Shown: in pieces, positions 41,791-48,513 of the stretch
Numbering within the stretch: position 1 is the first letter of the stretch
Layout of the letters: the number at the start of each line of letters is the position of its first letter
Source: an uncultured Bacteroidota bacterium
GTDB taxonomy: Bacteria > Bacteroidota > Bacteroidia > 2-12-FULL-35-15
Direction of reading: 5' to 3'
Length of the DNA stretch: 51,134 bases
NCBI GenBank assembly: GCA_903919535.1
Contig: CAIXIP010000115.1
Location: forward strand, 1-51,134
Translations under genes and position numbers: made by a program
Notes under the pieces: model-generated
The model's database searches: none
What the model was told of the DNA's origin: nothing
What the model saw: only the letters and a program-made list of their open reading frames with translations

Positions 41791-41798
41791 TATATTTG
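41791..41798 (+). promoter_or_regulatory. -7 promoter element TATATTTG
   Basis: TATATTTG followed by GCAGCCGC. If used, transcription would start near 41805 and give a leader of about 255 bases before the ATG at 42061. There is no clean -33 TTG at 17-23 bases. Confidence 0.5.
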
Positions 41799-41802
41799 CA
41801 GC

Positions 41803-42000
41803 CGCTTAATCGAAGAAAAAATAATGTTAAGCGAAACAATTGAGCTGAAATAAAAACGGCTCTTCATATTAAATCAGTAGGCCTAGTAACTTACTTAATT
41901 TAGAAAGGAGAAAACAAGAAACAGTATTTAAACTATAAATTATCATCACTCTTCAGAAGAGCCGTTGAAAACAAAAACCTTGAAGCTTTTCGTTTCAAGG
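41803..42000 (+). ncRNA. Candidate structured leader RNA
   Basis: Three stems can be drawn by eye in the long 5' region. Stem 1: CGCTTAA (41803-41809) with TTAAGCG (41827-41833). Stem 2, long-range: AACGGCTCTTC (41855-41865) with GAAGAGCCGTT (41956-41966), a perfect 11-base pairing closing 90 bases. Stem 3: CCTTGAA (41978-41984) with TTCAAGG (41994-42000). A 9-codon ORF, MLSETIELK, occupies 41824-41853 and overlaps stem 1. The AT-rich background makes the GC-bearing stem 2 notable. It could be a cis-regulatory leader, an attenuator with a leader peptide, or a small RNA. It matches no riboswitch I know. Confidence 0.4.
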
Positions 42001-42060
42001 GTCAATGTATAAATAAATAGAATAACAACAAAATTATTAAACATTAATCCAAATAAAATT

Positions 42061-42495
42061 ATGAAAAAATTAATTATAGCAGCATTTATATTATTAGTAA
42101 CAACAGCGCATACGTTTGCGATATCCATAACAGTCACGTTAACTACAAAAGCACATTGGGATGGCTCTTCCTGTGCCTATGCGCCACAAGGAATCTGTGT
42201 GCGTCTTACACTAGGAACTGAAATGCTTAGCACGAATGAAGTAAATGGGAATATGTCTTATGATAAAGCTCGAGGGATTATTCTTACTTTTTCGAAATCC
42301 AAAGATTTACAAAAAAAAGGTAATAGTTCATTATTCGCAAATAACTCATTTATAGTGGACGGTGATTCCCCTATCTCATATAGCTTGCTGAGAAAAATTG
42401 GCTATTCTATCTCCAAAGATTACACAATTAAAAAAGGGAAATATTCTTATTCAACAGAAGGTGATATCATTACAGTTATAATTCCAGTTAATTAA
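42061..42495 (+). CDS. Small secreted protein of unknown function
   Basis: I do not recognise this 144-residue protein. It has a clean signal peptide (MKKLIIAAFILLVTTAHTFA). The mature part begins ISITVTLTTKAHWDGSSCAYAPQGICVRLTL with two Cys (38 and 46) eight residues apart that could form a disulfide, and continues as alternating beta strands (RGIILTFSKS, SFIVDGDSPIS, DIITVIIPVN). No T9SS tail or lipobox is present, so it is probably periplasmic or released. A structured leader lies upstream and a strong terminator downstream, so it can be made as a separate short transcript, possibly at higher level than the three following genes. Confidence 0.75.
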   Translation: MKKLIIAAFILLVTTAHTFAISITVTLTTKAHWDGSSCAYAPQGICVRLTLGTEMLSTNEVNGNMSYDKARGIILTFSKSKDLQKKGNSSLFANNSFIVDGDSPISYSLLRKIGYSISKDYTIKKGKYSYSTEGDIITVIIPVN

Positions 42496-42503
42496 TAATT
42501 TAA

Positions 42504-42534
42504 CGAGCAGAATTTAATTCTGCTCGCTTTTTTT
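42504..42534 (+). terminator. Intrinsic terminator inside the locus
   Basis: CGAGCAGAAT / ATTCTGCTCG, a perfect 10-base stem with a TTA loop followed by a run of seven T, directly after the 144-residue gene. Partial read-through would lower expression of the downstream genes. Confidence 0.9.
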
Positions 42535-42546
42535 ATCTTATAAAAT

Positions 42547-43200
42547 ATGACTACAAATAAATTAAGAAAATTCTATATTCTAGCAATTTTCATTTTCCAA
42601 TTTTTGAGCTCTTTTGCACAAATAAATATTGCCATAACTCATCATGGAATAGATGATGGCTCAGCTAACCTGACCAAAGAGGACAGCCTGCACATAAAAA
42701 CATTTCAGATTGAAGATTTTGGAAAAAACATGCCTTCTAAAAACAAGTCTGAAATTGACTTTGACTTAATTACAGTAGACCAATTAAAACAAATATGCAG
42801 TAAAAATAAGTATACATGGTTATTCATTCAGTCTTCCTGGTGTGGAGCTTGCATAAGTAATCTAAACAAAAACAGAAAAACTGTTGATTCACTAAAAGAT
42901 GAAGGCATATCAATTGTGGTGGTTACACAAGACATATTAATAAAACAATTGCAGAAAAAAATATTTATGGAAAAATATAATACGTTATCATACATTATTG
43001 ACCCAAAAAAATATGGAACAAACGAATCCAAAAAACAAGAACAATTTATTCTGGAAATTGCTGGCAATAACAAAATAGAAAACAACCCAGGAAGTGTGCC
43101 CAAAAATTTATTTTTAAACCAAAAAGGGGAATTAGTTTATTTCGACACTACCTACAAAATCAATACAACCCTTATAAAAGAAAAAGTCCTTAACAAATGA
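42547..43200 (+). CDS. Exported thioredoxin-fold protein (CGAC)
   Basis: A 217-residue exported protein with signal peptide (KFYILAIFIFQFLSSFAQ). From about residue 75 it has a thioredoxin-like fold: WLFIQSSWCGACISNLN with active site Cys99-Gly-Ala-Cys102, then GISIVVVTQD, a helix, and SVPKNLFLNQKGELVYF, where the Pro is placed like the cis-Pro of thioredoxins. It resembles TlpA/ResA-type periplasmic redox proteins but is diverged, with a 50-residue N-terminal extension. It overlaps the following lipoprotein gene by four bases (ATGA), so the two are coupled. A plausible role is redox control of Cys pairs in the neighbouring proteins; this is inference. Confidence 0.8.
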   Translation: MTTNKLRKFYILAIFIFQFLSSFAQINIAITHHGIDDGSANLTKEDSLHIKTFQIEDFGKNMPSKNKSEIDFDLITVDQLKQICSKNKYTWLFIQSSWCGACISNLNKNRKTVDSLKDEGISIVVVTQDILIKQLQKKIFMEKYNTLSYIIDPKKYGTNESKKQEQFILEIAGNNKIENNPGSVPKNLFLNQKGELVYFDTTYKINTTLIKEKVLNK

Positions 43201-43820
43201 AAATAAAAGTAATTCTATATTGCATATTTTTAGTGTCATTATCATCATGCACTTTTATTATAAAAAAATGGGCTGGTATAAAAAATCCAAAATTAGAATC
43301 AATTCATTCTATAAACCATTACGCTAACAAAAAAGGTATAGATACCAGCATGTTTATCTTTTCAAAAGATTCAGCAAGTTTATTCAAACTGAATAATATG
43401 TTTTCTTCTTTCCCTGAAATCTTAGTGTTTGATAAACAAAAGAAATTCATACCCTACAAAAATGATTCTTCCACTTGTAATGGACCTGTTGATAACACCT
43501 TAAAAGGGATTTGCAATATCAGTTCGAATAATTTTTTAAGTACGAAAAAAATACTTTATGACTCATTACTAAATTGTATTATTGACCCTAATAAATGTTT
43601 GAAGTCCTTTGATATAAAAGATGTTGATTATGTTGTGTTTGTCAATTTTCAGAAAAATTTCCCTAGGTTAATTAGAACACATATCGTCCCATGGAATGCA
43701 GTTATTAAAGCAAACAATGCAAATTGTAAAGTGAAATACATTTACGTTGATCTTGACTATTTAAAAAAATGGGGAATAAGTAAAAAATCTTTGCCAAAGT
43801 ATCGATTCAACATATTTTAA
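43197..43820 (+). CDS. Cys-containing lipoprotein of unknown function
   Basis: I do not recognise this 207-residue protein. The N-terminus MKIKVILYCIFLVSLSSC is a lipoprotein signal with the lipidated Cys at 18. The rest has a mixed alpha/beta look: SMFIFSKDSASLFKLNN, FPEILVFDKQKKFIPY, DVDYVVFVNF and KVKYIYVDLDYLKKWG. The strands with FPEILVFDK could reflect a degenerate thioredoxin-like fold without a CxxC. Five further Cys occur in the mature chain, mostly in SSTCNGPVDNTLKGICN and LNCIIDPNKCLKS. It starts within the stop of the CGAC protein gene and ends 24 bases before the DUF3078 gene. Confidence 0.75.
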   Translation: MKIKVILYCIFLVSLSSCTFIIKKWAGIKNPKLESIHSINHYANKKGIDTSMFIFSKDSASLFKLNNMFSSFPEILVFDKQKKFIPYKNDSSTCNGPVDNTLKGICNISSNNFLSTKKILYDSLLNCIIDPNKCLKSFDIKDVDYVVFVNFQKNFPRLIRTHIVPWNAVIKANNANCKVKYIYVDLDYLKKWGISKKSLPKYRFNIF

Positions 43821-43844
43821 ATTTTTTCATAATTTTAATATTTA

Positions 43845-44735
43845 ATGAGAATAGTACATACTATTATTTATTTACTATTTACATTATGTTCACTAAATGG
43901 TGATGCGCAAAATCAAAAAGACACCACAAAAAAGTGCTTTCATCTACCACCAACTTTTACATATTCGAACAATTTTTCCGCTTCATATGTAAGCTATAAA
44001 AACTGGAAATACAATGGATATAATAATTTCGCCTTTCTACTTCGTGAAAATATAAATTATGACACAATTGGTAGTAACTGGGAAACACATGTTCGCTTTA
44101 ATGGTGAACTAGGATATATGAAATTTATTGATAGCTCATGGTATAAAAATACTGACTATCTGGATTTAAGCATAGAAGTTGTAAAAGTCAAAACGAAAAG
44201 AATTACAAATGTCTTTTCCCTTTATTTCAATTCTCAATTTTTGTCTACCTATGAAAATTATTACAACGAGGCTGGTTCCTACTCGAAACGTTGGGCGGGC
44301 GGTTTTGGTAACCCTATGTACTTAGATCTGGGCTATGGTTCTGAAATTCGTTTTTGGAAAAACTGCAGAATTAATTTAACCTACGTAACTCTCCAAACTA
44401 CTGTTATGCCAGCCTTAAACAAAGAACAACCTAACACTAACAATGATTTTCTTTATAAAAAGTCAATAATAACTTCTGAATATGGCTTGGGAATTCAAAC
44501 ATACATACGTCACAACTTTACTGAACGAATACGATGGGAGAATTATTCAAAAGGTTTTGTAAATGCGATCAACAGAAATCGCTTTAATATTGATTTCAGG
44601 AATAAAATAATTATTAAGGTCCTCAAATATTTAGATTTGATATTAGATAGTCGAATCAGATATATGCCTTCCCCTCCTTATAAATTTCAATTTCGAAATG
44701 AATTAATGTTGTCCTTTACATTTGAGAGAATTTAA
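43845..44735 (+). CDS. DUF3078-like outer-membrane barrel protein
   Basis: A 296-residue exported protein with signal peptide (MRIVHTIIYLLFTLCSLNGDAQ). The mature chain shows the DUF3078 pattern of Bacteroidota: FSASYVSYKNWKYNGYNNFAFLL near the start, then alternating strands rich in Tyr, Trp and Asn with turns (WETHVRFNGELGYMK, NVFSLYFNSQFLSTYENYY, KRWAGGFGNPMYLDLGYG) and a final strand FRNELMLSFTFERI. It is probably an outer-membrane beta barrel. Function of the family is not established. It closes the four-gene locus. Confidence 0.8.
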   Translation: MRIVHTIIYLLFTLCSLNGDAQNQKDTTKKCFHLPPTFTYSNNFSASYVSYKNWKYNGYNNFAFLLRENINYDTIGSNWETHVRFNGELGYMKFIDSSWYKNTDYLDLSIEVVKVKTKRITNVFSLYFNSQFLSTYENYYNEAGSYSKRWAGGFGNPMYLDLGYGSEIRFWKNCRINLTYVTLQTTVMPALNKEQPNTNNDFLYKKSIITSEYGLGIQTYIRHNFTERIRWENYSKGFVNAINRNRFNIDFRNKIIIKVLKYLDLILDSRIRYMPSPPYKFQFRNELMLSFTFERI

Positions 44736-44783: not shown

Positions 44784-46991
44784 TCAAATCCTTATCCCAA
44801 TAACTAACACATCATCAACCTGCTCAATAGTTCCGCGCCAATTATCAAAATGAGTCTCTAGCTCTATTTTTTGTGTCTCCATTGGCTTATCCGCAATAGA
44901 AGCCAGAATCTCTTTAAACTTTTTACTCATTAATTTTTTTCCTCTATCGCCACCAAACTGATCTGAAAAACCATCAGTAAAAGTGTAAACACAATCATCT
45001 TTTTGTAATTCGATTGTTCTTAAAGTAAATGGTTTTAATTCACCTTGATGTAAGCCAACAGGAAATTTATCAGCTTTGTATTCCAGTATTTCTTTCTTCC
45101 TTACTATTATCAGCGAATTATTTGCAGCTGCAAATTGCATTTGCTTATTATCAAAATCAAACGAACAGCACACAGCATCCATTCCATCTCTAGTGGTTTC
45201 CTCATTTGTGTCAGAGCTTAATGCTTTGATAATTTCCTCCCGAACATGAGAAAACACCAAATTAGGCTGTGTAATTTTTTTCTCATTAACAGTTTCGGTT
45301 AATTTCGAAATATTTAACAAACTCATGAATGCCCCAGGAACACCATGTCCTGTGCAATCACAGGTAGCCAATAAAAATTTATTATCGACAGTATTTTGTG
45401 CCCAATAAAAATCTCCTGAAACAATATCTTTAGGTTTATACAATACAAAATGATCTGGTAAATTTTTCTTCAATAAGTTATCAGAAGCTAGAAGCGCCCT
45501 TTGAATGCGTCTTGCATAATATATCGAATCAAGTATCTCTTTATTCTTTACCTCTATTAATTCTTTTTGGTGAGTAATTTCTATGTTCGCTTTTTGTTTT
45601 TCGCGATAACGCTTGAACATCATAAATGCGAGAATCAATAACAAAACGATTCCTGCAACAGCCACGTAATTAACAAGATTTTGCCTAACGATTCTTTCGT
45701 TTTGTATTTCATTATCTTTAGTAAGCAACTCGATTGCTTTTTGTTTCTTATCAGCCTCATACATGGCTTGCATTTGGCCAATCCGTTTATTGACTTCATT
45801 GTTATTTATTTCTTCATAGACGGCTTGCAATTTTTGCTGGTAAATAAATGCTTCCTTAAAGTTCTTGGATTGGCTGTAAATAAATGCAATAGAACTATAG
45901 CAATTTTTCATTTCATCTTTGTCACCTTCCTTTTCAATTATCTCTAGTCCTTTTAGAGCAAACTCTTCCGCTTTTTTATAATTTTTTTGCGCGCTATATA
46001 CATCTGCCACTGACATCATTGCCCTAGCAGCACTATATTCATCATTATTCTTTAAGGCCGAATCTAAAGCAATTTGTTGATACTCCATTGCTTTATCATA
46101 TTGTTTCATATCAAACAACAATACACCAATATTATGCAACACCATGCTGTATGAAGTATTCATCCCAATTTTTTTATATAATCGTGATGCCTCATTATAA
46201 TTTTTTATTGCAGCATCATACATATGTTGCTCACGATAAATTATGCCCAAATTATTATACACATTAGCTTCGGCTTCCTCTCTGTTATTCTTTTTAAACA
46301 GTTCAAGGGCTTTAAAATTATAATTGATGGCATTATCTAATTGATGTTGTTCCTGATAAATCACCGCAATATTTGCATCTATCATTGCATCTTGTATTTC
46401 ATCTTTTAATATTTTATTTTGTTGCAAAGCTTTAAAAAGGCAATCCAAAGCTTTGCTGTAATCCCCAATATTTTGGTATACTACTGCCAGATTGGTTAAT
46501 GCAACCATTTCTACATTAATATTTTTCACCTGCTTCGATTGTTTTATTGCCTCTTTATAATAGTGCTCGGCTTTTAAATAATCTGCCATATCTAAATACA
46601 CGTTCCCCACATTGAGATTTGCTTTTGATTGCATTGCAACCTGATTAAGTTTAATACCTATTTCTGCGGTTTTAGTAAAATATTCAATAGCCTTTTTATA
46701 ATTTGCCAATGAACGATTTTCGATACCCAGCAATGTGTAAGACTGCGCTTTCCCATTCTCATAATTTAATTTTTCAGAAAGGGCCAATGCCTCCATTGCA
46801 AAGCCTTCAATCTTATTGATATCAGAATATGAATATTCCCACCCAATATCAATAAGGAGTTTAACTCTGTTTGTATCGGCCTTTTGAGTTTTTAAAACGA
46901 TAAGAAGACTGTCTACAACCTGAGATGAAGAATATTGAGCTATTGAAATAAGAACAATAAATAGAAAAATTATCTTATTATTTTTTTTCAT
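44784..46991 (-). CDS. TPR protein with SpoIIE/PP2C phosphatase domain
   Basis: A 735-residue signalling protein. After a signal peptide come about eight tetratricopeptide repeats (to roughly residue 400; units such as ALTNLAVVYQNIGDYSKALDCLFKAL), a membrane segment (VNYVAVAGIVLLLILAFMMF), a coiled coil, and a C-terminal SpoIIE-type PP2C Ser/Thr phosphatase with the metal-site elements KPKDIVSGDFYW, ATCDCTGHGVPGAFMSLL, GMDAVCCSFD and FTDGFSDQFGG. The TPR part would face the periplasm and the phosphatase the cytoplasm, a common Bacteroidota sensor design, often paired with anti-sigma-factor antagonists; none is encoded here. A TATTTTTG element lies at 47031-47024 on the minus strand. Confidence 0.92.
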   Translation of the reverse strand: MKKNNKIIFLFIVLISIAQYSSSQVVDSLLIVLKTQKADTNRVKLLIDIGWEYSYSDINKIEGFAMEALALSEKLNYENGKAQSYTLLGIENRSLANYKKAIEYFTKTAEIGIKLNQVAMQSKANLNVGNVYLDMADYLKAEHYYKEAIKQSKQVKNINVEMVALTNLAVVYQNIGDYSKALDCLFKALQQNKILKDEIQDAMIDANIAVIYQEQHQLDNAINYNFKALELFKKNNREEAEANVYNNLGIIYREQHMYDAAIKNYNEASRLYKKIGMNTSYSMVLHNIGVLLFDMKQYDKAMEYQQIALDSALKNNDEYSAARAMMSVADVYSAQKNYKKAEEFALKGLEIIEKEGDKDEMKNCYSSIAFIYSQSKNFKEAFIYQQKLQAVYEEINNNEVNKRIGQMQAMYEADKKQKAIELLTKDNEIQNERIVRQNLVNYVAVAGIVLLLILAFMMFKRYREKQKANIEITHQKELIEVKNKEILDSIYYARRIQRALLASDNLLKKNLPDHFVLYKPKDIVSGDFYWAQNTVDNKFLLATCDCTGHGVPGAFMSLLNISKLTETVNEKKITQPNLVFSHVREEIIKALSSDTNEETTRDGMDAVCCSFDFDNKQMQFAAANNSLIIVRKKEILEYKADKFPVGLHQGELKPFTLRTIELQKDDCVYTFTDGFSDQFGGDRGKKLMSKKFKEILASIADKPMETQKIELETHFDNWRGTIEQVDDVLVIGIRI

Positions 46992-48288: not shown

Positions 48289-48513
48289 TCAATTCGCGTC
48301 ACGCATCAATTTTACATACAAGTCCTCCACTTTTTTTCTTGCCCAGGGAGTTTTTCTCAAAAAGGTCAGACTTGATTTAATACTTGGATCAGAAATAAAA
48401 CAATTGATGTGGATATGGTGTGCGAGGCCTTCCCAACGATAAGTTTCTACTAATTCTTCCAGAATTGATTGAAGTGTTTTTCCGTGAAGAGGATCTTTTG
48501 GAGAAGGTGACAT
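48289..48513 (-). CDS. VF530 (DUF2132) family protein
   Basis: A 74-residue protein matching the VF530/DUF2132 family nearly end to end: [19 protein letters not shown], then [22 protein letters not shown] and KVEDLYVKL. The family is small, found across many bacteria, and described as having a DNA-binding-like helical fold; its biological role is not settled. It is convergent with the esterase gene, with stops two bases apart. Confidence 0.92.

Follow-up and report, generated by a model that had tools for sequence, protein, structure and literature searches.

A conserved gene cassette in the Bacteroidia pairing a small secreted protein with a thioredoxin-like lipoprotein and a predicted DUF3078-like barrel, preceded by a structured leader RNA

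The DNA analysed here, which we refer to as the window, is the whole 51,134-nt stretch of contig CAIXIP010000115.1 (GCA_903919535.1) from an uncultured Bacteroidota bacterium, and all coordinates are those of this stretch. It contains four genes in a row on the plus strand behind a long leader, and three of these – encoding a small secreted protein (gene 1), a lipoprotein (gene 3) and a predicted outer-membrane barrel (gene 4) – constitute an evolutionarily conserved and previously undescribed cassette. We call it undescribed because its two defining protein families, its leader and their combination are absent from the libraries and literature searched. An earlier inspection of the letters alone, referred to below as the sequence-only reading, had listed several of the elements here, and each was found in the sequence where it had been placed. 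The features of the locus are as follows.

41791..41798, +, promoter-like TATATTTG, the -7 type of Bacteroidota, at the same place in 8/8 loci compared
41803..41833, +, first leader stem CGCTTAA / TTAAGCG (41803-41809 with 41827-41833), at the 5' end of the transcript, read from the sequence
41849..42003, +, structured RNA leader, defined by covariance model R1
41855..41966, +, long-range closing stem P1, 11 pairs, AACGGCTCTTC (41855-41865) with GAAGAGCCGTT (41956-41966)
41876..41895, +, hairpin P2, AGTAGG (41876-41881) with CTTACT (41890-41895), with a double change
41902..41910, +, extended Shine-Dalgarno-like element AGAAAGGAG, complementary to the 16S tail ACCUCCUUUCU
41947..41961, +, local hairpin CACTCTTCAGAAGAG, a rival of P1, conserved in the 9 genus leaders whose 3' half is intact
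41978..42000, +, hairpin P4, CCTTGAAGC / GTTTCAAGG (41978-41986 with 41992-42000), with a double change
42061..42495, +, gene 1, small secreted protein of 144 aa with Cys38 and Cys46, ATG at 42061
42504..42534, +, stem-loop 3' of gene 1, with a T7 tail in the window, conserved in position
42547..43200, +, gene 2, exported thioredoxin-fold protein with CGAC at residues 99-102, an optional member
43197..43820, +, gene 3, lipoprotein with lipobox Cys18 and a thioredoxin-like fold without CxxC
43845..44735, +, gene 4, DUF3078-like putative outer-membrane barrel (PF11276, 24.8 bits)

The conservation of the cassette was assessed in 36 genomes of the genus and in 395 genomes from across the class. 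Within the genus, a search with the barrel located the cassette in eight genomes besides that of the window. Ten of the 36 genomes, the window's included, carry the cassette, and in every one with a long enough contig gene 1 is followed by the stem-loop, by one or two lipoprotein genes and by the barrel; the barrel is adjacent in 9/9 loci, and in the tenth genome, G009, the contig stops at the lipoprotein. Across the class, profiles detect gene 1 in 32 genomes and the lipoprotein in 57, and both together in 28 where 4.6 would be expected (hypergeometric P 6e-23, a value that overstates independence because the surveyed genomes are related). The two genes are neighbours in all 28 genomes that carry both, separated by 0-157 bases; in the window the intervening CGAC gene widens the gap to 708 bases. 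An iterated barrel profile, which reaches distant families missed by single searches, finds 27 loci, spread over several families, in which a barrel follows these two genes. The proposal of the sequence-only reading that the genes form one linked system is thus borne out for genes 1, 3 and 4, whose homologues, far from being mostly unlinked, are linked and collinear in the genus as well as in several families elsewhere in the class. Its inclusion of the CGAC protein is not supported as it stood, as that gene is present in only one of the 36 genus genomes.

The four genes could also be read as two independent units, with gene 1 ending at the hairpin and genes 2-4 forming an unrelated redox or envelope operon, and both the resemblance of the window hairpin to a complete intrinsic terminator and the rarity of the CGAC gene accord with this. 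We consider such a division very improbable, since the gene order is kept across families despite different neighbours, gene 1 and the lipoprotein adjoin one another wherever they co-occur, several relatives lack the T tail, and no promoter-like site was seen between the hairpin and gene 2 using an E. coli-type consensus only.

In the window the hairpin consists of 10 pairs (42504-42526) followed by T7, and a stem-loop directly 3' of the gene 1 stop has z <= -4 in 9/9 genus loci tested, compared with 10/140 other gene ends; most cassettes outside the genus have one as well, with z mostly -4 to -8. The stem-loop sequences are unrelated between genomes and the T run is absent in most relatives, so that position rather than sequence is conserved. 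No such stem-loop is found in L072 and L066, in which gene 1 has neither a lipoprotein nor a barrel behind it. This pattern suits a device that sets the level of gene 1 over its partners. The strong terminator noted earlier at this place is a hairpin with a conserved position, and in the window it has both the stem and the T run of an intrinsic terminator, but several stem-loop-bearing relatives have no T run and the name 'terminator' may be too narrow. The accompanying idea, of an abundant first product and limited read-through, gains support from the retention of the stem-loop position across families. In puf operons an intercistronic stem-loop sets the stoichiometry between an abundant first product and scarcer partners; the cassette likewise has a strong stem-loop after its first gene, but one that stays in place from genome to genome with an unrelated sequence.

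Profile searches that included homologues of gene 1 assigned it to no family in Pfam, NCBIfam or the PDB. Its signal peptide was read off the sequence by eye rather than with a prediction tool. The pair of cysteines is kept in 30/30 homologues. Its spacing is mostly five residues; a few members have six or seven, the window copy seven, and conserved glycines follow the pair in most of them. The AlphaFold2 (AF2) model is fair, with a mean predicted local distance difference test score (pLDDT) of 75.5, and a fold search with it gave no credible match (best E 0.26). Among the 30 homologues there is no Por_Secre_tail C-terminal sorting domain, as would be carried by cargo of the type IX secretion system (T9SS), and a Pfam scan of the same 30 found no curlin or Fap family. 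The latter bears on a similarity of layout to the curli and Fap amyloid operons, in which a small exported subunit made in excess is accompanied by a lipoprotein and outer-membrane exporter partners; the cassette is similarly arranged, but gene 1 lacks the Pfam match, has a conserved Cys pair and shows no evident repeats. An origin from a phage, a plasmid or a defence system was considered and set aside after three gene 1 homologues gave no plasmid match and a comparison with the PADLOC anti-phage models yielded nothing credible, the best hit being to Cas5b over a short stretch (E 0.031).

Two gene 1 homologues have distinctive neighbours. In L098 (4476-8316) a homologue without a clear signal peptide adjoins an HlyD-type fusion protein and a C39-peptidase ABC exporter, a placement that would fit an exported cargo. 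In L066 (7793-9759) the homologue lies by a Cys-rich small peptide, a membrane thioredoxin (NCGNC) and a DCC1-like thiol-disulfide oxidoreductase.

The lipoprotein had been described from the letters as Cys-containing; its thioredoxin fold was not foreseen. Its profile matches thioredoxins in the PDB, with a best E of 0.0008 and mostly thioredoxins among the matches with E < 1, in an alignment that runs from the active-site strand onwards and covers strand and helix. There is no catalytic CxxC, and aligned members have WAK/WAx..G..N where WCGPC would stand. The AF2 model is good (pLDDT 88) and the fold search with it weak, the first match being a circularly permuted DsbA at E 0.096. The C-terminal half of the lipoprotein matches the N-terminal half of thioredoxins, and its N-terminal half resembles C-terminal thioredoxin segments (of YkuV and of gene 2), both of the latter matches being weak. 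Because the segment order is swapped relative to thioredoxins, the best reading is a circularly permuted, cysteine-less thioredoxin fold, which is supported but not proven. We note that relatives of the CQPIMMKIYGIKxPxIEN type occur without gene 1 in L081-L086, L095 and L096, such that the cysteine-less thioredoxin-fold lipoprotein constitutes a wider family.

Gene 2, which overlaps gene 3 by 4 bases, has its CGAC, a CxxC, within a thioredoxin-like frame (Redoxin alignment 82-155), with a Redoxin score of 18.8 bits against a cut-off of 26.6 and no NCBIfam model near its cut-off. The gene is rare in the genus, yet it recurs in cassettes of another family: L100 has gene 1, a CGPC thioredoxin and the barrel, L099 has gene 1 and the thioredoxin, and in L061 the homologue is split over two frames. 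The CGAC thioredoxin is thus an optional member of the cassette, and CxxC thioredoxins take the place of the lipoprotein or accompany it: the window has CGAC, L100 has CGPC, and L066 has NCGNC together with the DCC1-like protein beside gene 1. With the Thioredoxin/TlpA/ResA proteins the cassette shares the CGAC in a thioredoxin-like frame of gene 2 and the thioredoxin matches of the lipoprotein profile, whereas the lipoprotein differs from them in having no CxxC and a segment order that fits circular permutation.

The product of gene 4 is predicted to be a DUF3078-like outer-membrane barrel. It scores 24.8 bits against DUF3078 (PF11276), for which the gathering cut-off is 25; all nine genus members match (best E 1.9e-7), with barrel identities of 61-65% within the genus, and relatives in other families score 16-19 bits or do not match. 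The DUF3078 protein PG1786 of Porphyromonas gingivalis is described as an outer-membrane protein (PMC9722745) and is among the bioinformatically predicted components of the T9SS (PMC5053529); gene 4 resembles such proteins at a profile score just under the curated cut-off. The literature found on DUF3078 describes no link to small secreted proteins.

The promoter-like element lies 207-273 bases 5' of gene 1 in the 8/8 loci compared, as TATATTTG in seven and AATATTTG in one, and the leader from TATATTTG to gene 1 folds more stably than its shuffles (z -2.9, with 2/200 shuffles as stable). Stems comparable to the first leader stem were seen by eye in relatives. The leader core (41849-42003) is 61-97% identical between genus genomes; the corresponding ranges are 42-70% in the gene 1 coding sequence and 37-74% in the DNA upstream, and the leader evolves more slowly than gene 1. 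Model R1 matches ten of the 36 genus genomes at E <= 6.2e-11, the next match in any genome being at E 0.07, and these are exactly the gene 1 carriers; both score strongly in the identical ten genomes. The leader is present as a single copy per genome and only in front of gene 1. In the 395 class genomes the model finds nothing outside the genus at E <= 0.001, and no Rfam family matched in the window at gathering scores, with permissive scans giving only chance-level matches.

The consensus fold comprises a closing stem, an inner hairpin and a downstream hairpin, with 97.8% of cells paired. Each of the three helices has one pair with a double change – G-C to A-U in L016/L020 for P1, A-U/U-A in 3 genomes for P2 and A-U/C-G in 3 genomes for P4 – and sliding the partners destroys the signal; the covariation is modest, as there are ten sequences and only three compensated pairs. 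CTCTTC occurs twice in the leader and both copies can pair with the same GAAGAG, forming either the long stem P1 or the local hairpin, and this competition makes a two-state fold possible. The leader of L017 (leader L029) has a deletion that removes the 3' half of the structure, and constitutes a natural mutant. The structured leader of the sequence-only reading is present as to its stems, and a conserved RNA with an extended Shine-Dalgarno (SD) element had not been anticipated; a 9-codon open reading frame (ORF) proposed within it exists at 41824-41853 and was dropped as a leader element, since it is not conserved in relatives. Outside the genus, four leaders from four other genera (L101, L102, L104 and L105) contain a motif close to GGCAGCCnCGTTCGCCTCA about 60-80 bases before gene 1.

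That the leader is an independent small RNA located upstream of the cassette by chance, and not a regulator of the operon, would accord with its being more conserved than the following gene and with its folding by itself. This is highly unlikely given that it occurs only before gene 1, in the ten genomes with that gene and once in each, and that no terminator is predicted between the two.

The extended SD element, AGAAAGGAG(GU), is complementary over 9-11 bases to the 16S tail ACCUCCUUUCU of a same-genus genome, used because the tail of the window's own genome was not found and is probably unassembled; with the canonical tail the duplex has a computed energy of -13 to -18 kcal/mol. SD sequences precede 0/41 ORFs in the window. 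In this genus it is not followed by a start codon. Ribosomes of Flavobacterium johnsoniae without bS21 favour mRNAs with an extended SD, such as the bS21-controlled rpsU mRNA, for which a strength of < -13 kcal/mol is reported (PMC9976891). The SD of the leader is comparable in strength; it differs in its distance of some 150 bases from gene 1 and in the missing start codon. A shared SD regulon with rpsU was rejected, as rpsU of the window genome has no SD in front. Leaders of another family contain AAAGGAGG and, behind it, an ORF of two codons that reads ATGACTTAA or nearly so; in L074, L077, L078, L079 and L103 the extended SD and the two-codon ORF (ATGACTTAA or ATGACATAG/ATGACTTAG) are located about 100-110 bases before gene 1. 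It is conceivable, if doubtful, that the leader represents a cis-regulatory RNA of a new class, its two-state fold showing or hiding a start-codon-less extended SD. In an equally speculative extension, free 16S 3' ends, for example those of ribosomes lacking bS21, would bind the SD and switch the output of the secreted protein. The leader could then reveal a use of SD pairing in a phylum whose ribosomes largely ignore SD sequences.

What the cassette does is suggested by the nature and order of its parts, and the reading that we tentatively favour, which we place a little short of an even chance, is one of export, maturation or display of a small disulfide protein made in bulk, with level and stoichiometry under RNA control. 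In the scheme that we infer, a single transcript would start just 3' of 41798, the folded leader would gate its expression, and the stem-loop would keep the gene 1 mRNA abundant while only part of the transcription or message reaches the partner genes. The gene 1 product would be exported by Sec, its signal cleaved and its conserved Cys pair converted to a disulfide; the thioredoxin-fold lipoprotein would hold or mature it in the periplasm, with a Cys-active thioredoxin, for example the CGAC protein, alongside it in some lineages; and the DUF3078-like barrel would anchor it or move it across the outer membrane. The sequence-only reading had ventured export, maturation or display; the invariant Cys pair and the recurring thioredoxin-fold partners suit maturation, and the CGAC protein to which it had given a part is not a fixed member. 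If this reading is true, the Bacteroidia share an unnamed envelope system with two undescribed protein families, a secreted protein with a Cys pair and a lipoprotein whose thioredoxin fold lacks cysteines and is apparently permuted, and the widespread, uncharacterised DUF3078 barrel acquires a testable partner.

Several observations weigh against this interpretation. In L062, L063 and L073, all of one family, two gene 1 copies and the lipoprotein have no neighbouring barrel, so the barrel is either not always required or located elsewhere. The lipoprotein family is found alone, without gene 1, in about 29/395 class genomes, and so must also serve some purpose unrelated to gene 1. Near the cysteines the model of gene 1 is poor (pLDDT < 50 at 31-36 and 39-45), and with this disorder the disulfide is an inference. 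Finally, no annotated homologue indicates transport or a surface location.

The main rival is an antagonism system, in which gene 1 would be a small antibacterial protein that is exported, while the lipoprotein, alone or with the barrel, would protect the producer or belong to the exporter. Within the genus, homologues of gene 1 have diverged fast, to 20-37% identity with the window copy, whereas the barrel is conserved; the cassette is patchy in the genus, the two neighbours of the L098 homologue are the usual bacteriocin exporter pair, and in one lineage gene 1 is accompanied by Cys-rich peptides and oxidoreductases. Such a role is nonetheless unlikely, as library searches matched no toxin, bacteriocin or immunity family, and the cassette apparently occupies one conserved chromosomal site in most of the genus rather than mobile DNA, with no plasmid copy found for three gene 1 homologues.

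A signalling or stress cassette under dedicated regulators, in which the lipoprotein and barrel would read gene 1 as a secreted ligand or sensor domain, is brought to mind by the genes beside gene 1: a divergent LuxR-type regulator in L061, L062, L063, L073, L099 and L100, an XRE regulator in L074, L078, L079, L101, L102, L104 and L105, and TPR-SpoIIE phosphatase genes downstream of the barrel in several genus loci. We regard it as distinctly unlikely, in that the cassette has no TonB-dependent transducer, anti-sigma factor or kinase, and the stem-loop and leader would favour bulk output of gene 1, which would be unusual for a ligand.

Two neighbours of the cassette in the window recur in relatives. 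A gene for a VF530 DNA-binding protein lies a few kb downstream of the cassette in the window (48289-48513, -) and directly upstream in L013, L014, L016, L017 and L019, with one ORF between in some; the differing placement suggests local rearrangement at one ancestral site. The TPR-SpoIIE phosphatase gene of the window lies past the barrel on the opposite strand (44784-46991, -), and such genes follow the barrel in L012 (10362-12374), L013 (11531-15588), L014 (9984-11936) and L015 (4307-6340); the phosphatase may be a regulator or a common neighbour.

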